Positions 2,898 to 22,980 of a stretch of DNA of 52,951 nt are shown here, piece after piece. Position numbers and translations under genes: made by a program. Under the pieces are notes generated by a model, which made no database searches, was not told the origin of the DNA, and worked only from the letters and a program-made list of their open reading frames with translations. This DNA is from a virus: IMG/VR virus record IMGVR_UViG_3300038660_000404, positions 1 through 52,951 of that record; one strand, given 5' to 3'. The first letter of the stretch is position 1, and each line of letters starts with the position of its first letter.

Positions 2898-3422
2898 TTA
2901 GGCCGGTGACGTGACGGCATCTTCTTTTCCGCGCAGCATGTGGCTGGCGACCAAAATCTTCTCGATCTCCGGCCAATGGTCGCTGGCCTCTATCCACGGG
3001 ACGAGGTGGTCACGGACATAGGTCATCGTGTCGTCCATGAAGGCGGAGAATTCATCCCCGTCCATTGAGGCGAAGCTGATCGACACCGGTCGCGCGACGA
3101 TCGCGATCGCACCCTCCGGGATGTTGTGCCTGGCCCGTTCCGACCGCGTCATATTGCGGTTCCGGGTGCGTCCGGTTGCCACCAGCAGGTCGTCTTTGAT
3201 GTTCTCCGCCGTCCATTCGGCGCTGGTCGGTCCATCGTTCAGGGCCTTGGCCACGTAGGTCAAAAAGGCCCAGAACAGGCGGTGCTGCTTGCCGTTGCGC
3301 GGCCGCGTGGGTTCGATCTTGTAGAGCGCGCCAAACTTGAGCTTCTCGATCGCCAGCTGACCCGCTTTTGAGGATGGGACCAGCATATGGTCAAACCGGT
3401 GCACAAAAAACGCATAAGCCAT
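2898..3422 (-). CDS. DUF1367-like phage protein
   Basis: A 174-aa protein starting MAYAFFVHRFDH; the ATG at 3422 overlaps the upstream stop by one base (TGATG). Two stretches resemble DUF1367 family proteins: a RPRNGKQHRLFWAFL segment near residues 40-55 and SISFASMDGDEF near 115-127. DUF1367 proteins are found in phage recombination regions, and some relatives are compared to NinB-type recombination proteins, so a role near RecT is plausible. The assignment rests on motif resemblance from memory, not on a search. Confidence 0.7.
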   Translation of the reverse strand: MAYAFFVHRFDHMLVPSSKAGQLAIEKLKFGALYKIEPTRPRNGKQHRLFWAFLTYVAKALNDGPTSAEWTAENIKDDLLVATGRTRNRNMTRSERARHNIPEGAIAIVARPVSISFASMDGDEFSAFMDDTMTYVRDHLVPWIEASDHWPEIEKILVASHMLRGKEDAVTSPA

Positions 3423-3616
3423 CACACCAACCCCACTTTTGTCGCAAGCCACTCCGGCAAGGCGACCGTTTTGACACCAGGGTTGTTGGTCGCACTCACC
3501 TCGACCAAGGCGAGGGGCAGCCAGACTGCCGCGTCGCTGTCGCCGGTGTGCACCAGGACCGCGCGCTCCGTGAGGGCGACAATTTCCACGTCGATATAGG
3601 TAAGCGCGTCATTCAT
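3422..3616 (-). CDS. Small hypothetical early protein
   Basis: A 64-aa beta-rich protein (MNDALTYIDVEIVALTERAVLVHTG...). The pattern of short strands with a WLPLALVEV segment is typical of small single-domain phage proteins in this kind of operon. No family assigned. It overlaps the LexA-like gene upstream by 4 nt and the DUF1367-like gene downstream by one base. Confidence 0.75.
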   Translation of the reverse strand: MNDALTYIDVEIVALTERAVLVHTGDSDAAVWLPLALVEVSATNNPGVKTVALPEWLATKVGLV

Positions 3617-14173: not shown

Positions 14174-14233
14174 CTGACGTGCGGGGCCGCCGCTGCGCGG
14201 TATTTGCGTGTTTTTATTTCTTTCAAATATCCG

Positions 14234-15544
14234 ATGGAGTTTGTTTTGCCCCCAAGTTCAGATGCCCCTTCCGGTCGACTTGATGCTGCCCGCTGGCCTG
14301 CCTCGAAGATTGAGATGTGGCCGGTTGCAGACCTCACGCCCTACGTCAAAAATGCCCGCACGCATCCTCAAGAGCAGGTTGATCAGATCGCGGCGTCGAT
14401 GGAGCGGTTCGGCTTTACGATCCCGATGCTTGTCGCTGAGAACGGCACGATCATCGCTGGCCACGGACGGCTGATGGCTGCGGCGCAGCTTGGCATGGCC
14501 GAGGTCCCGGTGATGGTGGCGCGGGGCTGGTCTGATGAGGACCGGCGGTTTTACACGCTGGCTGACAACCGGCTGGCGGAGACGTCGGAGTGGGACCCGG
14601 AGACGCTGCAGGTTGAGTGGGATGAGTTGAACGCGCTCGGGCTTGGCGATGATCTGTCGATGATCGGGTTCTCCGATGAGGACCTGAAGGACATTCTGCC
14701 TGCCGCGCTGCTTGAGGTGACGGGCGGTCTGACGGACCCGGATGATGTGCCGGAGGTCGACGAGGCCCAGCCGATCAGCCAGCCCGGCGATGTCTGGATC
14801 CTCGGCAAGCACCGGCTGCTCTGCGGCGATAGCACTGTGGCCACCGATGTGGAAAAGGTGCTGGGCGATGTGACGCCGCTGCTGATGTGCACAGATCCAC
14901 CCTACGGAGTTGAGTACGACCCGAGCTGGCGCAACCAGGTGGGGGCGGCCAAGACCAAACGTACCGGCAAGGTGCTGAATGATGATCGGGCCGATTGGCG
15001 CGAAGCCTGGGCGCTGTTTCCGGGTGACGTGGCCTATGTCTGGCATGGCGCGCTGCACGCAGGAGAGGTCGCGGAAAGCCTAGAGGCGGCTGGCTTCACG
15101 ATCCGCTCGCAGATCATCTGGGCCAAGGAGCGGCTGGTGCTCAGCCGGGGCGATTATCACTGGCAACATGAGCCGGCCTGGTACGCTGTCAAAAAGACCG
15201 GCAAGGGTCACTGGGCGGGCGATCGCAAGCAGACGACGCTGTGGCAAATCCCCAGCAAGGATCAGGATGCCAAGACGGTACACGGAACACAAAAGCCGGT
15301 CGAATGCATGCGTCGGCCGATCGAGAACAACTCGAGCCCCGGACAGGCGGTTTATGAGCCCTTCATGGGCTCAGGGACCACGCTGATCGCAGCGGAAATG
15401 TCAGGACGCGTCTGCTTCGGCATCGAGTTGAACCCGGCTTACGTCGATGTGGCGGTGGAGAGGTGGCAGAACTTCACCGGCGAGGACGCCGTTCTGTCCG
15501 GCTCGGACGAGACCTTCAACAAAATTAAGAACAAAGACGATTGA
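14234..15544 (+). CDS. ParB-like domain / N6-adenine DNA methyltransferase fusion
   Basis: A 436-aa protein that should methylate adenine-N6 (or less likely cytosine-N4) in DNA. Residues about 28-120 are a ParB-like domain (VADLTPYVKNARTHP, GTIIAGHGRLMAA). The catalytic domain (about 185-420) has the DPPY motif at 221-224 before the SAM-binding FMGSGTT at 377-383, the beta-class order. FGIELNPAYVDVAVERW closes it. Such fusions are frequent in phages and may modify phage DNA against host restriction. ATG 14234 is chosen although its ribosome binding site is poor; ATG 14315 is an alternative. Confidence 0.92.
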   Translation: MEFVLPPSSDAPSGRLDAARWPASKIEMWPVADLTPYVKNARTHPQEQVDQIAASMERFGFTIPMLVAENGTIIAGHGRLMAAAQLGMAEVPVMVARGWSDEDRRFYTLADNRLAETSEWDPETLQVEWDELNALGLGDDLSMIGFSDEDLKDILPAALLEVTGGLTDPDDVPEVDEAQPISQPGDVWILGKHRLLCGDSTVATDVEKVLGDVTPLLMCTDPPYGVEYDPSWRNQVGAAKTKRTGKVLNDDRADWREAWALFPGDVAYVWHGALHAGEVAESLEAAGFTIRSQIIWAKERLVLSRGDYHWQHEPAWYAVKKTGKGHWAGDRKQTTLWQIPSKDQDAKTVHGTQKPVECMRRPIENNSSPGQAVYEPFMGSGTTLIAAEMSGRVCFGIELNPAYVDVAVERWQNFTGEDAVLSGSDETFNKIKNKDD

Positions 15545-15547
15545 GGC

Positions 15548-16729
15548 ATGAATGACCTGGCTTTACATCCCTCCGGACGCGTTTCCGGATCCCCAGACGC
15601 TTGCCTCTTCGGCCTCTCGCTGTGCTCCGGTGCAGGCGGGCTCGACCTCGGGCTCACCATCGCCATCCCTGGATATCGAACTTTGGGCTATGTCGAACGG
15701 GAGACCTACGCCGCAGCCACTCTCGTGGCGCGGATGGAAGACGCGGCCTTGGATCAAGCGGTTGTCTGGGACGACGTTGGAACCTTCGACGGCCGACCGT
15801 GGCGCGGCGTGGTGGATATCCTCTCGGCCGGGTACCCTTGCCAGCCATTTTCGGTCGCGGGCAAACGGCTCGGCACCGAGGACCCGCGCCACCTCTGGCC
15901 GCATGTCGCGCGCATCATCGGTGAATGCGAGCCGCCCTTCGTGTTCCTCGAGAATGTCGCCCATCATCTCCGCCTCGGCTTCCCCGAAGTCGCCAGCGGA
16001 CTGGTCAGCATGGGCTACAAACTTGCGGCAGGCCTCTTTACGGCGGCGGAAGTCGGTGCGCCGCACAAACGCGAGCGGCTGTTCATCCTTGCCATCCGCG
16101 AGGGGGACGCGCTGGCCGACCCCGCGCGCCTGCTCTGGGACCCGGTCGAGTGGCGGCAACCGGACGGAGATGATGCGGCTCTGGCCGACGCCCCGCGCCA
16201 GCGCCAACGAGAACCGGCAGACGAAACCGACGCCGTCGCAAGAAGCGGGCAAGCATGGGATGAACTTGGCAACGACGGCCGCGATGTGGCCCACGCCGCA
16301 AACCGACAGCTTTCGGAGCCGGGGCGGAGACCGAAAGCACGAGAAGGGTCTGGACAGTATGGCGCGGGATTGGCCGACGCCCATGGCGAACGACGGCAAC
16401 AAGCCGAGCGCGGGCAACCGCAAGACGGCGGATCTGACCCATGCCAGCCGCCTGTGGATGACGCCGACGGCGCGGGATCACAAGGACGGCGCGACGACAT
16501 TGGCGAACACGCCGGTGAACGGCCTGCTTGGCCGCCAAGTCCTGGTGATGAAGGTGGCTGGGAGCGATACCTCCGATGCGCGCCGGACCTTGAACCCAGC
16601 ATTCGTCGAGGCGCTGATGGGCTGGCCCACCGGGTGGACCGGCTTCGCCTCTGTGGCAACGGTGTGGTCCCCTTGGTTGCAGCGCATGCGCTGCGAACTT
16701 TGGCGGCTGAACTGCTGGCCGATAGATGA
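15548..16729 (+). CDS. C5-cytosine DNA methyltransferase (frame 1)
   Basis: A 393-aa enzyme that transfers a methyl group from SAM to C5 of cytosine. Motifs in order: I LCSGAGGLDLGL (25-36); IV AGYPCQPFSVAGK with the catalytic Cys98; VI FVFLENV (Glu135); VIII GAPHKRERLFILA (170-182); X RLRLCGNGVVPL (365-376). The stretch 205-335 is the expected variable target-recognition region, but its third-position G/C bias is weak (hand count 18/30 codons at 16370-16459, against 28/30 in the +1 frame). The GAGG ribosome binding site is only one base from this ATG. The whole gene is overlapped by another open frame. Confidence 0.9.
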   Translation: MNDLALHPSGRVSGSPDACLFGLSLCSGAGGLDLGLTIAIPGYRTLGYVERETYAAATLVARMEDAALDQAVVWDDVGTFDGRPWRGVVDILSAGYPCQPFSVAGKRLGTEDPRHLWPHVARIIGECEPPFVFLENVAHHLRLGFPEVASGLVSMGYKLAAGLFTAAEVGAPHKRERLFILAIREGDALADPARLLWDPVEWRQPDGDDAALADAPRQRQREPADETDAVARSGQAWDELGNDGRDVAHAANRQLSEPGRRPKAREGSGQYGAGLADAHGERRQQAERGQPQDGGSDPCQPPVDDADGAGSQGRRDDIGEHAGERPAWPPSPGDEGGWERYLRCAPDLEPSIRRGADGLAHRVDRLRLCGNGVVPLVAAHALRTLAAELLADR

Positions 16730-16742
16730 GGAGGTTGGCTGA
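15552..16742 (+). CDS. Overlapping second-frame protein with W-P-T-P repeats
   Basis: A 396-aa frame, +1 to the methyltransferase, open from an ATG four bases after the methyltransferase ATG to 13 bases past its stop. GAGG (15543-15546) is five bases upstream, a better spacing than for frame 1. The second half carries repeated WPTP units (RLWPTPRAS, AMWPTPQTD, DWPTPMAND, LWMTPTARDHKDG) and ends LNPAFVEALMGWPTGWTGF, a signature I know from phage methyltransferase-associated proteins. Codon usage there fits this frame best. It could be a true dual-coded protein, the C-terminal part of a frameshift product, or a conserved shadow. Function unknown. Confidence 0.5.
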   Translation: MTWLYIPPDAFPDPQTLASSASRCAPVQAGSTSGSPSPSLDIELWAMSNGRPTPQPLSWRGWKTRPWIKRLSGTTLEPSTADRGAAWWISSRPGTLASHFRSRANGSAPRTRATSGRMSRASSVNASRPSCSSRMSPIISASASPKSPADWSAWATNLRQASLRRRKSVRRTNASGCSSLPSARGTRWPTPRACSGTRSSGGNRTEMMRLWPTPRASANENRQTKPTPSQEAGKHGMNLATTAAMWPTPQTDSFRSRGGDRKHEKGLDSMARDWPTPMANDGNKPSAGNRKTADLTHASRLWMTPTARDHKDGATTLANTPVNGLLGRQVLVMKVAGSDTSDARRTLNPAFVEALMGWPTGWTGFASVATVWSPWLQRMRCELWRLNCWPIDEEVG

Positions 16743-16772: not shown

Positions 16773-17084
16773 TCAAGGTTGCCAATCGCTCCGACGGCCA
16801 TGCCGGACATGGAGCACCTGCACGACCCCGTCGATTACGGAATAGTAAATCCGCCAACGGGTCGCCCGCCCATAAAGCGCACGACGGACAGCCAAGTCGA
16901 AATCCTGCGATTCAGGGGCCCTCGGATGTGCTTCCGGCATGGCCCCAAGCGCGAGGATCAAATTCCGGATGCCCGCACGCCATTCGTCCGCAGCCCTCGG
17001 GTTGCGGTCGCGCAGCCAGACCCATGATGCTGTCAGATCATCCGCCGCATTCGGCGTGATGATCACCGGCAGCGGTGCGGTCAT
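16773..17084 (-). CDS. ParE/RelE-family toxin
   Basis: A 103-aa protein of the ParE/RelE toxin superfamily: ITPNAADDLTASWVWL at the N-terminus, AGIRNLILALGAMPEAHPRAPES in the middle, and RRALYGRATRWRIYYSVIDGVVQVLHVRHGRR at the C-terminus, the family's typical basic end. ParE members poison gyrase and RelE members cut mRNA; the sequence does not settle which. Its ATG overlaps the antitoxin stop (ATGA), so toxin translation depends on antitoxin translation. It is convergent with the methyltransferase genes. Confidence 0.9.
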   Translation of the reverse strand: MTAPLPVIITPNAADDLTASWVWLRDRNPRAADEWRAGIRNLILALGAMPEAHPRAPESQDFDLAVRRALYGRATRWRIYYSVIDGVVQVLHVRHGRRSDWQP

Positions 17085-17356
17085 TTCGTCAGTTTGAGTT
17101 CATCAAAGAAACGGCCAGCCTCCGTGCCTTCACCGGCCAGTGCCTGCGTCAGACCCTTGCGGATGCCTGCGACGGTCTCGGCATAGTCAAGCTGGTCCTG
17201 CATCTCCTGCCACGCGGCAGCATCCATCACAACGACGGAGGGCTTGCCATTGACGGTCAGGATCTGCGGCCGTCCGCTTTCCTTGATATGCGCGATCATG
17301 CGCGCCGAATCCCGCTTGAACTCGGTCAGCGGGCTGATGTCTTTGGTGATGTTCAT
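17081..17356 (-). CDS. Phd/YefM-family antitoxin
   Basis: A 91-aa antitoxin starting MNITKDISPLTEFKRDS at 17356 behind GGGAGG. Residues 1-50 have the Phd/YefM DNA-binding pattern (a first FKRD segment, then GRPQILTVNGKPSVVVMDAAAW), and the C-terminal 40 residues are the toxin-binding helix. It should neutralise the downstream ParE-like toxin and repress its own promoter; a palindrome that could be its operator lies at 17374-17412. The pair may stabilise the prophage. Confidence 0.92.
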   Translation of the reverse strand: MNITKDISPLTEFKRDSARMIAHIKESGRPQILTVNGKPSVVVMDAAAWQEMQDQLDYAETVAGIRKGLTQALAGEGTEAGRFFDELKLTK

Positions 17357-17373
17357 GGCTGGCCTCCCGACGC

Positions 17374-17412
17374 GCATCTAATTCGGTGCGAATATAGCGT
17401 TAATTTAGATGC
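17374..17412. promoter_or_regulatory. Inverted repeat upstream of the antitoxin (candidate operator)
   Basis: GCATCTAA at 17374-17381 and TTAGATGC at 17405-17412 form a perfect 8-bp inverted repeat; extended by the flanking T/A bases, the arms are GCATCTAATT and AATTTAGATGC. It lies 18 bp upstream of the antitoxin start in an AT-rich gap, where Phd/YefM proteins normally autoregulate. Confidence 0.6.
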
Positions 17413-19463: not shown

Positions 19464-19967
19464 ATGGCAGACGAGGGAGAAAAGCCGAGGGGCAACATTG
19501 TTACGGTCACTCAGGCCGCTGCTCTTTGCGGCCGCAGCACGCAGTGGGTCCACCAGCTGGCAAAGGGCGGCTACATCACCAAAGAGGGGCACGGCAGCTA
19601 CACCCTGGTGTCGCTCGTGCGGGGCGTGATCGCCTATTACGAGGACCTTCAGTCCAAGAACAGCAAGACGGCCTCCGCCAGCCGCGCGACGGACGCACGG
19701 ACGCGCGAGATTGAGCTGCGGATCAAGGAGCGCAGCCGGGAGCTGATCCCGATCGAAGATGCGCGGGCAGAAATCGCTGACTGGACCTCCGCTTTCCGTG
19801 CTGAGCTTCAAGGCCTTGCCGCTCGGTTCACGCGCGACATGCAGGAGCGCCGCAGGCTTGAGCAGGAAATAGATGGCGCACTCGAACGACTTTCTCGGCG
19901 GACCAGCGAAGCAGAGCAGGCTCTCGCGTCTGGTGAAGGAGCTGTTGCGGCCGAGCCAGAAGCGTGA
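19464..19967 (+). CDS. Terminase small subunit (Nu1-like)
   Basis: A 167-aa DNA-packaging protein. The N-terminal segment VTVTQAAALCGRSTQWVHQLAKGGYI is the winged-helix/MerR-like DNA-binding fold of Nu1-type small terminases, and the rest is a long charged helix (ELRIKERSRELIPIEDARAEIADW) for oligomerisation and TerL contact. It should recognise the packaging site. A 60-bp AT-rich divergent gap precedes it and probably holds the late promoter. The large-subunit gene begins 95 nt before its end. Confidence 0.88.
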   Translation: MADEGEKPRGNIVTVTQAAALCGRSTQWVHQLAKGGYITKEGHGSYTLVSLVRGVIAYYEDLQSKNSKTASASRATDARTREIELRIKERSRELIPIEDARAEIADWTSAFRAELQGLAARFTRDMQERRRLEQEIDGALERLSRRTSEAEQALASGEGAVAAEPEA

Positions 19968-22900
19968 TCCGGCGGACTGGGCCGCCGACAACCGCGTCTA
20001 TCCGGAGACGGCGGGCATCCCAGGCCCGCGTGACCCATGGCTGACGCCGTATATGATCCCGTGGTCCTCGGCGGTTCATCGGGGTGGTTATCGCCGCATC
20101 GTGGCTGTGACCTCGGCGCAGTCGGGCAAGACCGACAGCATGCTCGACATCATCGGGGCCCGGCTTGACCAGCGTCCAGCGCCGATCATCTACGTCGGCC
20201 CGACCAAAGAGTTTCTCACGGACCAATTCGAGCCCCGCCTGATGGGTCTGCTTGATGAGGCCGAGAGCCTGAAGAACAAGGTCATGCGCGGGCGGCGCAT
20301 GAAAAAGACCCTCAAGCATGTGGCTGGCGTTCGCGTTCGCCTTGCGCATGCAGGTTCGTCCTCGGCCCTGAAATCAGACCCGGCCGCACTCGCCCTGATC
20401 GACGAGTTTGACGAGATGATGGCGAACGTCAGGGGCCAAGGCGACGTGCTCGGGCTCGTGGAGGCCCGTGGCGAGACCTACGCCGACTTCGTGACCGCGA
20501 TCACCAGCACACCAGCGAGAGGTCTTGTGGAAATCGAGTTGAACGATGATAGCGGGCTTGAGTTTTGGTCGCGATCCGAACCGGCTGATTTGGAAAGCCC
20601 GATCTGGAAGCTGTTTCAGGAGGGCACGCGGCATCACTGGGCGTGGCCCTGCAAGCACTGCTCGGAATACTTCATCCCGCGCTTCAAGCAGCTGCACTGG
20701 CCGGACCGGGCGACACCTTCGGTGGCCAAGCGATCGGCTTCGCTGTTCTGCCCACGCTGCGGCGGGATCCACACCGAAGAGGACAAGGCATGGATGAATG
20801 CTCGGGGTGCAATGGTGGCACCCGGGCAGAGTGTTGAGCTGCGCAACGACGCCCCGCACGTAACAGGTGCGCCAGAGGACAACTCGACCCTGTCAATGTG
20901 GACCTCGGGCCTGTGCTCGCCCTTCGTGTCATGGGGCCAGCGGGCAGAGACCTATCTGACAGCGCTGCAATCGGGCGATCACGACCGCATCCAGACGGCG
21001 ATGAACGCCAGCTTCGGCGAATGCTACGCCATGATGGCTTCGGGAGACGTGCCGGAATGGCAGGAAATCATGGAGCGGCGGCTGCCGTATCAGCCCGGGC
21101 AGGTCCCTTTGGGCGGCCTGCGAGTGGTGATGGGCGTCGACGTGCAGAAGTTCAGCCTTGTCTATGTGATCCGGGCTTTTGGGGCTCGGGGATCGTCGTG
21201 GATGGTTGATAACGGCCAGCTATATGGCCCCACCGAGGACGATGATGTCTGGTCCGCACTGGCCGATCTTATGTTGCAGCCGATTGGCGGAATGCAGATC
21301 GAAAAGGTGTTCATCGACAGTGGCTTCCGGCCTGACAAGCCGGAGCAAGGCAACGAGCACAAGGTCTACGAGTTCTGCCGCCGCTACAGCTGGCTGTGCT
21401 CCCCGACCAAGGGCAAGGATATCCAGAGCCCGCCCTACAAGGTCTCGAAGATCGAGGTCAAACCGGACGGCAAGCGGGCGCTTTACTCGATCGACCTCGT
21501 GACGCTGTCGTCGGACTTTTTCAAGTCGCTGGTGATCTCGCGCATCCGCACGCCCATGGACGTGCCGGGTGCTTTCTATGTCCACGAACAGGTCTCAGAA
21601 GATTATTGCAGGCAATTGACCTCGGAGGCCCGGGTGGTCGTGGAGGGCAAGCCGGTCTGGGTGAAGCGCAGCCGGAACAACCATTTCCTCGATTGTTTCG
21701 ACCCCGAGACCGAGCTTCTGACCGAAGATGGCTGGATGCGTGTCGAGGACGCGGTTTCTTACGTGGGCCGCTTCGCAACGGTCAATCTGGACAGCGATGT
21801 GATCGAGTATCAGGGCGCGACCAAATCAGTCTCGCGCTGGCATTCGGGTGAGATGGTCCAGATCAAAGGTCGGGCAGTGGACCTTCTTGTGACGCCTAAC
21901 CACCGGATGGTGACGCAGCGCAGGAACCCTGTGGACAATACCCCTCGCATAACTTTGGCGAAGGATTTGACCATTTGGCACACGCTCAAACGGTCCTCGA
22001 ATTGGGTAGGTGAGCGACACGATGTCGTGACCCTGCCTGAGTTATCACTCAAGGCGACCAATTGGCGAGAGTTGAGTGAGCCAGAGCGATCTTTCAATGC
22101 CGGAGACTGGTGTGAGTTTCTTGGCTGGTACATCTGCGGCGGGCATACCACCCACCAAGGCAACTATGCCAGGGTTGTTATCTCGCAGGGCCCTGGTGAA
22201 AAGGCAGACCGCATTGCGGCTCTGCTTGATCGGATGGGGCTCGAATATAGCATCCATGGTGGGCGACAGTTCGTCATTTCATCGCGGCAGATCGCGGCGG
22301 CATTGGCTGACTGTGCAGGCGAGGATGGTCGTTGCTACTCTAGGCGCGTTCCGGGTTTTGTCCGACGTGCGAGCAGCGACCTGATCGACCGGTTCCTTGA
22401 TGCCGCCATCCTAGGCGATGGGTGGGTTCAGAATGGGTATCGTGCCTATGCGACGGTCAGCGCCAAGCTGGCTGACGATATGCAGGAGCTTTTTATCAAG
22501 GCCGGACGGAGCGCAAATATCATCCGACGCGATGCCAAGCCTTACTCCATCAACGGACGGACCTCGCCCAACACAGTCGACCAGTATCACGTCTCTGAAA
22601 TTCGTGCGCCTGCCGCCTCGTTGCGTCGAGCAGATAACGCTCCGATTTTCAGAAACGTCGCCTACTCTGGGATGGTGTATTGCGTGACCGTGCCAAACGG
22701 AACGCTGATAGCGCGCCGAAATGGCAAGGCCATCATAGTTGGCAACTGCGAGGCGCTTTGCGCAGCCATCGGCTACGCATTCAACGTTCAGCGGATCCCG
22801 GAAGGCATCGAGCGCAAGACTTCCATCGAGGCGGCGGTGCCCGAGGGGCATGACCAGAAACTGGCACCGATGTCAGACCCACCAGATACGTCGTTGGTCT

Positions 22901-22980
22901 CGCAATCGCCCAAGCTGCGTAACGGCAGCGGCGCTCTGCGCAGGCGATTTGCACGCCAAGGCAGCCGGTTGAACAGGTAA
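19873..22980 (+). CDS. Terminase large subunit (GpA type) interrupted by an intein
   Basis: A 1035-aa precursor. The N-extein (1-607) is a GpA/TerL packaging motor: Walker A SAQSGKTD at 81-88, Walker B ALIDEFDE at 174-181, a zinc-ribbon-like pair CKHC...CPRC near 264-292, and nuclease-domain segments GVDVQ and FIDSGFRPD. An intein occupies 608-958. The C-extein (959-1035) begins CEALCAAIGYAF. Spliced, the protein would be about 684 aa, normal for GpA. The insertion point is within the conserved LD-C segment near the nuclease active site. The start ATG overlaps terS by 95 nt and has AGGAAATAG before it. Confidence 0.93.
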   Translation: MAHSNDFLGGPAKQSRLSRLVKELLRPSQKRDPADWAADNRVYPETAGIPGPRDPWLTPYMIPWSSAVHRGGYRRIVAVTSAQSGKTDSMLDIIGARLDQRPAPIIYVGPTKEFLTDQFEPRLMGLLDEAESLKNKVMRGRRMKKTLKHVAGVRVRLAHAGSSSALKSDPAALALIDEFDEMMANVRGQGDVLGLVEARGETYADFVTAITSTPARGLVEIELNDDSGLEFWSRSEPADLESPIWKLFQEGTRHHWAWPCKHCSEYFIPRFKQLHWPDRATPSVAKRSASLFCPRCGGIHTEEDKAWMNARGAMVAPGQSVELRNDAPHVTGAPEDNSTLSMWTSGLCSPFVSWGQRAETYLTALQSGDHDRIQTAMNASFGECYAMMASGDVPEWQEIMERRLPYQPGQVPLGGLRVVMGVDVQKFSLVYVIRAFGARGSSWMVDNGQLYGPTEDDDVWSALADLMLQPIGGMQIEKVFIDSGFRPDKPEQGNEHKVYEFCRRYSWLCSPTKGKDIQSPPYKVSKIEVKPDGKRALYSIDLVTLSSDFFKSLVISRIRTPMDVPGAFYVHEQVSEDYCRQLTSEARVVVEGKPVWVKRSRNNHFLDCFDPETELLTEDGWMRVEDAVSYVGRFATVNLDSDVIEYQGATKSVSRWHSGEMVQIKGRAVDLLVTPNHRMVTQRRNPVDNTPRITLAKDLTIWHTLKRSSNWVGERHDVVTLPELSLKATNWRELSEPERSFNAGDWCEFLGWYICGGHTTHQGNYARVVISQGPGEKADRIAALLDRMGLEYSIHGGRQFVISSRQIAAALADCAGEDGRCYSRRVPGFVRRASSDLIDRFLDAAILGDGWVQNGYRAYATVSAKLADDMQELFIKAGRSANIIRRDAKPYSINGRTSPNTVDQYHVSEIRAPAASLRRADNAPIFRNVAYSGMVYCVTVPNGTLIARRNGKAIIVGNCEALCAAIGYAFNVQRIPEGIERKTSIEAAVPEGHDQKLAPMSDPPDTSLVSQSPKLRNGSGALRRRFARQGSRLNR
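21694..22746 (+). mobile_element. Intein with LAGLIDADG-like domain in TerL
   Basis: A 351-aa in-frame protein-splicing element. Block A CFDPETELLTEDGWMRV with Cys1; block B LLVTPNHRMV (T-x-x-H); blocks F/G YSGMVYCVTVPNGTL and the end IIVGN followed by Cys+1. The penultimate residue is Gly, not the usual His. A homing-endonuclease region shows two dodecapeptide-like motifs: FLGWYICGG, in which the catalytic acid is replaced by Gly, and FLDAAILGDG, which keeps it. So splicing is plausible but endonuclease activity is doubtful. Confidence 0.9.

Follow-up and report, generated by a model that had tools for sequence, protein, structure and literature searches.

Lee, Kam and Shaw reportedly found in 1995 that the small polypeptide of M.EcoHK31I is encoded within the large one, in a different reading frame. 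M.EcoHK31I (YGGCCR) is a two-polypeptide C5 enzyme, in which the large subunit contains motifs I–VIII and X and is assigned the recognition domain, and the small subunit contains motif IX (PMC3404938). M.AquI (CYCGRG) is a split C5-methyltransferase whose two polypeptides constitute one enzyme, and its small subunit contains motifs IX and X (PMC3404938).

The DNA analyzed here is a 53-kb virus record (52,951 nucleotides, the whole of which is called the window). ATGs at 15548 and 15552 open two overlapping frames, whose products are designated alpha (frame 0) and beta (+1 frame). As in M.EcoHK31I, alpha has motifs I–VIII and X, and motif IX is found on the second polypeptide. As is said of M.EcoHK31I, the second polypeptide lies out of frame within the first; beta is placed exactly at +1 in 161 of 162 more distant loci. 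Unlike in M.EcoHK31I, the recognition boxes are found in beta and evolve in the beta frame, and alpha is predicted to be disordered there. Besides, the start of beta adjoins that of alpha and its frame covers the gene from end to end; the likeness drawn here is one of description. Unlike in M.AquI, motif X remains in alpha and the frames fully overlap; the phages Charm and TaylorSipht resemble the arrangement of M.AquI. One-frame actinophage enzymes (Mycobacterium phage Rita gp76, PHROG 363/116/1008) have the catalytic domain, the TP boxes and motifs IX and X in common with this locus, but all motifs are there in one frame and one protein.

Overlapping ORFs are also found in Paenibacillus phage Tadhana (54/55) and Xanthomonas phage PhiXhv-28, where the records annotate both ORFs as DNA methyltransferase, and no functional interpretation was seen in these records. 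Tadhana differs in that beta opens inside alpha. A phage methylase gene with a mobile homing-endonuclease insertion also hides a second ORF out of frame; that ORF belongs to a mobile insertion and uses the third frame, whereas beta would be part of the enzyme itself. The first-pass annotation knew of no description of such a system. M.EcoHK31I and the doubly annotated records stand against this, although no general description of overlapping phage methyltransferases was found in the literature searched. Judged from sequence, the overlap class appears to be a widespread variant of two-polypeptide C5 enzymes akin to M.EcoHK31I, and not without precedent. The reading preferred here, with a probability of roughly 0.8, is that one C5-cytosine DNA methyltransferase is encoded as two polypeptides by fully overlapping frames.

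The two frames and their predicted products

The features of the locus are as follows.

15543–15572, + strand: dual start region, with GAGG, the alpha ATG (15548), the beta ATG (15552) and the beta N-terminus MTWLYIP (15552–15572); the N-terminal peptide of beta starts MTWLYIPPDAFPDPQ...
15548–16729, + strand: alpha ORF, frame 0, 393 codons; putative catalytic subunit with motifs I–VIII and X and a long linker replacing the target-recognition domain
15552–16742, + strand: beta ORF, +1 frame, 396 codons; putative recognition boxes and motif IX
15614–15652, + strand: alpha motif I (LSLCSGAGGLDLG), AdoMet site, conserved in the alpha alignment
15836–15844, + strand: alpha motif IV, Pro-Cys-Gln with the catalytic cysteine; P97, C98 and Q99 invariant
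15950–15958, + strand: alpha motif VI, Glu-Asn-Val; E135, N136 and V137 invariant or nearly so
16055–16078, + strand: alpha motif VIII region (GAPHKRER); R177 invariant, R175 nearly so
16113–16466, + strand: putative recognition region of beta, with WPTP at 16113, 16182, 16287 and 16371 and WMTP at 16455
16148–16507, + strand: alpha linker with LADA boxes, open and apparently unconstrained; shadow of the beta recognition region
16590–16637, + strand: beta motif IX (LNPAFVEALMGWPTGW), overlapping the alpha codons that precede motif X
16640–16684, + strand: alpha motif X (RLRLCGNGVVPLVAA), containing GNGVVPL; G370, N371, G372 and V373 invariant

Two ATGs four bases apart and frames of 393 and 396 codons had been reported in the first-pass annotation, and the ends at 16729 and 16742 confirm them. 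GAGG (15543–15546) was rightly placed 1 nt from the alpha ATG and 5 nt from the beta ATG. The G/C content at third positions, counted by hand in that annotation, holds on recount: it is 25/30 for alpha and 20/29 for beta at 15809–15898, and 18/30 for alpha and 28/30 for beta at 16370–16460. It is also correct that the LADA boxes of alpha and the WPTP boxes of beta are the same DNA.

The gene immediately upstream (14225–15544, + strand) encodes ParB_N plus an N6/N4 methyltransferase and ends 3 nt before the alpha ATG, placing two methyltransferases in tandem. Directly downstream is a convergent gene for a ParE-type toxin (16773–17084, − strand), paired with a Phd/YefM antitoxin (17081–17377, − strand). 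The terminase large subunit GpA (19873–22980, + strand) contains an apparent intein; the insert is flanked by Cys, shows a LAGLIDADG-like match (PF14528) and follows the GpA nuclease region.

Residues 23–188 of alpha match PF00145 in Pfam (9e-32), and alpha matches PHROG 363 (2e-56). Motifs I, IV (PCQ), VI (ENV), VIII and X of C5-methyltransferases are all present in order. Alpha had been thought to hold every C5 motif, but the recognition domain and motif IX expected between motifs VIII and X are absent from the alpha polypeptide, both in its sequence and in its AF2 model, and are present in the beta frame. AF2 models residues 21–195 and 330–392 mostly with confidence, and residues 201–320 as disordered (pLDDT about 30). 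By Foldseek, alpha matches the large domain of M.HhaI (E 2e-14). The predicted disorder falls exactly where the recognition domain should sit.

Beta matches PHROG 1008 (8e-19). It has no family match in Pfam or NCBIfam and none outside phage PHROGs, and no solved structure in PDB was matched by sequence. In its motif IX, F351, L355, M356 and W358 are invariant in 78 betas. The AF2 model of beta alone is poorly folded (pTM 0.23); the confident parts are the motif IX helix (pLDDT 91), the C-terminal helix and one helix at 151–172, and the N half is Ser/Arg-rich with mostly low confidence. Such a poor fold in isolation would fit what is expected of an obligate partner, yet it is no proof of one. 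At about residues 20–180, the deep conservation of beta is no greater than the constraint on alpha itself demands.

The profile of beta aligns to residues 199–350 of the one-frame Rita enzyme (probability 97.4%, E 1.4e-11), and that of alpha to residues 2–159 (E 4e-35). The single frame of Rita contains motifs IV, VI and VIII, several LPTP boxes, and motifs IX and X, in that order. Based on this alignment, the WPTP boxes of beta can be considered to correspond to the recognition region and to be homologous to the LPTP boxes of Rita. In split relatives, the segment equivalent to that of beta sits directly before motif X.

A form of beta with 389 open codons recurs in bacterial genomes, where the match skips roughly positions 182–225 of the profile. 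It is seen at six loci, and several genomes contain 3–6 beta matches. The skipped positions suggest that the number of recognition boxes may vary.

Openness and selection in the two frames

The case for dual coding rests on comparative evidence; the window alone would not suffice, as its end-to-end +1 frame is not significant by synonymous shuffling at this high GC content (P = 0.10). Two scans of viral contigs yielded 160 close loci, many being the same contigs reached twice, and an ungapped set from these loci gives 67 close homologues. Both frames are open in 67/67 of them, and the third frame in 0/67. The first-pass annotation had proposed comparing the openness of the beta frame with simulations. 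In 71 of 82 non-redundant overlap genes it exceeds the synonymous-shuffle null at P ≤ 0.05 (median P 0), and the +2 frame of the same genes shows no excess over the shuffles (median P 0.57). In AT-richer phages a long open frame comes less cheaply; in one of them, C75C1 (GC 0.48), the open stretch of beta measures 1383 nt, and the 99.9th percentile of the null is 981 nt.

Codons that would interrupt the other frame are avoided. T at the beta wobble position before AA, AG or GA, which would stop alpha, is seen at 0 of 2266 sites (10–16% in control genes). NTG followed by A would end beta; in the catalytic half it is seen at 0 of 99 (55–70% in controls). The counts are not independent trials, since the sequences are related and have sites in common. 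The openness of alpha through the beta half is under selection.

Codon-position diversity among the 67 homologues changes along the gene. Up to about 16088, the third position (wobble) of alpha is the most variable. At 16130–16540, the first position of alpha, which is the wobble position of beta, becomes the most variable (0.19–0.30 versus 0.02–0.06 at the third position of alpha). Diversity is low at all codon positions at 16540–16640, spanning motif IX, where selection acts on both frames, and the alpha-frame signature returns after 16640, over motif X. The coding signal is switched from alpha to beta near 16100–16130, and the movement between frames described in the first-pass annotation is real. 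At about 16088–16548, amino acid identity is 0.90–0.94 for beta, 0.72–0.77 for alpha and 0.70–0.77 for the unused third frame. Since alpha is here close to the unused frame, its LADA stretch appears to be unconstrained in sequence, and together with the AF2 model it behaves as a disordered linker.

In the catalytic half, divergence at four-fold sites of alpha is 0.07–0.15; the genes that flank it in these loci show 0.34. Exceptions are the start segment (0.25) and one 90-nt patch (15824–15914, 0.33), where synonymous divergence is free between two constrained blocks. The patch implies a possibly loose stretch of beta around residues 92–121.

A test of per-frame constraint in homologous loci had also been proposed, and beta-frame constraint beyond that of alpha is indeed found at 16130–16540 and over the first ~7 residues of beta. 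True dual coding, one of the explanations first offered for the locus, is strongly supported by openness and per-frame constraint across the homologues.

Start codons, initiation and alternative explanations

The beta ATG is kept in 67/67 close homologues and 79/79 bacterial loci. GAGG at 15543–15546 is not conserved in relatives, and no Shine-Dalgarno sequence is conserved in the family of the window (22/79 bacterial loci). At 15561–15574, the wobble columns of beta vary and those of alpha are nearly fixed. The first 20 residues of beta in the diverse set likewise show beta-frame constraint (0.46 at the third position versus 0.26 and 0.19). Trp3 and Pro7 (numbering of the window) are invariant in 78 diverse betas. 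In the diverse set, beta starts with M-W-L-[YF]-[VIL]-P, for example MWLYVP (MTWLYIP in the window), and its start codon lies between alpha starts, typically as (A/G/T)TG-A-ATG-TGG. NTGTGG is found in 60/76 diverse loci and an alpha start at −4 in 51/76, and the window has ATGAATG.

Two adjacent start codons in different frames, as in ambiguous starts of the AUGUG type, are thus found here. In E. coli, both ORFs that share an overlapping AUGUG start can be translated, and the outcome depends on where the Shine-Dalgarno sequence lies (Kohl 2022, PMC9841429). The conserved start and the beta-frame constraint at the N-terminus indicate that beta is most simply a separate polypeptide made from its own ATG. 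The co-start mechanism would not be universal, since the beta frame opens only inside alpha in 34 of 83 non-redundant overlap genes, such as those of Tadhana (1676–2380) and N15 (gene 58).

Those 34 genes, with the Ser/Arg-rich and mostly low-confidence N half of beta, would suit a functional beta that starts internally, as in Paenibacillus phages, with dual coding real but the first ~180 codons untranslated here. This is unlikely, as relatives keep both the beta ATG and MTWLYIP/MWLYVP, where the codon signature is that of the beta frame, and through the N half the beta frame is open in 67/67, stops are avoided and synonymous divergence is reduced. Fusion of the two halves by a +1 shift had also been offered for this locus. 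Near 16090–16130, either the ribosome would shift by +1 in a programmed manner or the transcript would slip, which joins the catalytic half of alpha to the recognition half of beta and leaves unshifted alpha as a second product. The coding signal does pass into the +1 frame there, and five consecutive G lie close to the switch in the window. However, GGGGG is found in only 25/67 close homologues and no shared slip motif was seen in the diverse relatives. As far as 540 nt upstream, next to the conserved ATG, the first residues of beta are under selection in their own frame, and the avoidance of +1 stops in the alpha half would be needless for a shift in mid-gene. Such a fusion is disfavoured and very unlikely.

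If both proteins are made, beta could be a separate regulator or adaptor and not the recognition half of the enzyme, and its lack of a family match outside phage PHROGs and of a known structure or activity leaves room for this. It is highly improbable, since the alignment places beta on the recognition region and motif IX of a one-frame methyltransferase, split relatives have that segment directly before motif X, and alpha is without these parts. That frame 2 owes its openness to chance in GC-rich DNA, and that its signatures are a shadow of alpha, has a practically negligible probability. The shuffles of the window alone would agree with it, but the comparative data refute it: at 16130–16540 it is alpha, far less conserved than beta, that is the apparent shadow. 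Chance openness from GC content is ruled out by the shuffles and the stop-context tests.

For the enzyme of two polypeptides from overlapping frames, we infer translation of both proteins, their assembly, and the activity, specificity and role of the product along the following lines. Alpha would make up the large catalytic domain, which motif X rejoins at the C-terminus; between motifs VIII and X it would supply no more than a disordered linker, in which no stop can be tolerated. Beta, from the ATG 4 nt downstream, would carry the target-recognition boxes and motif IX, and might dock onto alpha, completing the enzyme as its small domain. The two start codons nearly coincide, and a single ribosome-binding region probably serves initiation at both. 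Methylation of phage DNA is the most likely task of the enzyme, by which host restriction could be evaded.

Distribution, origin and meaning of the overlap

A profile scan of bacterial genomes returned 80 loci, nearly all alphaproteobacterial. In one alphaproteobacterial family, 57 of 298 genomes have a beta match, mostly uninterrupted. A scan with beta of a Synechococcus phage returned 79 viral loci, with alpha identity mostly 34–75%. In 157 of the 162 more distant loci, the two frames stay open for 800 nt or more. The five exceptions have beta at +2, a truncated or fragmentary beta, a shortened alpha, or a shorter beta near the contig end. Scans from alpha-type or one-frame proteins do not presuppose beta, and they also recover the overlap (70/80 loci for Paenibacillus alpha, 29/77 for Rita). 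The scans with phiKX1 beta and N15 alpha returned few loci. By sequence comparison, the architecture is conserved in several hundred phage and prophage genes, and it spans phages of Proteobacteria, Cyanobacteria, Firmicutes and Bacteroidetes, with gene 58 of coliphage N15 included.

In a tree of the catalytic domain with 106 rows, the overlap state needs only two changes. One-frame genes and most split genes are grouped in one clade, of the type of the mycobacteriophages Rita and Charm. Four loci (L165, L329, L446 and L450) are split forms in which motifs IX and X are both in +1. L446 and L450 are placed as sisters of the overlap gene L447, and a recent transition is possible. An ancient frame switch, one of the origins first proposed for this locus, is plausible, since one-frame and split relatives exist; it could have occurred in either direction.

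Most genomes show only one of the two proteins in annotation, and the choice is inconsistent between records. Alpha is annotated in the Synechococcus, N15 and Klebsiella records, and beta in the Acidovorax record, where it is named methyltransferase. Gene 58 of coliphage N15 (L339, 1212–2207), annotated as cytosine methylase, contains a hidden +1 frame with motif IX, open at 1405–2130, and is a convenient laboratory test case. In Klebsiella phage KpV2811 (L164, 2111–3472), the beta frame reaches the downstream endonuclease VII gene (3014–3472) without a stop, and a beta-endonuclease fusion is therefore possible.

It can be regarded as likely that phages have a large and ancient class of C5-methyltransferases whose members require two subunits, where the +1 frame encodes the entire recognition half over the full length of the catalytic gene and translation of both begins at a conserved double start codon. 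Many 'single-gene' enzymes, including N15 gp58, would then be half-enzymes with an unannotated partner. It is rare for both products of an overlap of ~1.2 kb to be conserved, and few such cases lend themselves so well to testing. If this is true, many annotations of phage methyltransferases miss half of the enzyme, and specificity assigned from alpha alone would be wrong. Heterologous expression from a recoded (codon-optimised) gene would silently destroy beta. The LADA-rich tracts of methyltransferases in databases would be the out-of-frame shadow of a recognition domain.
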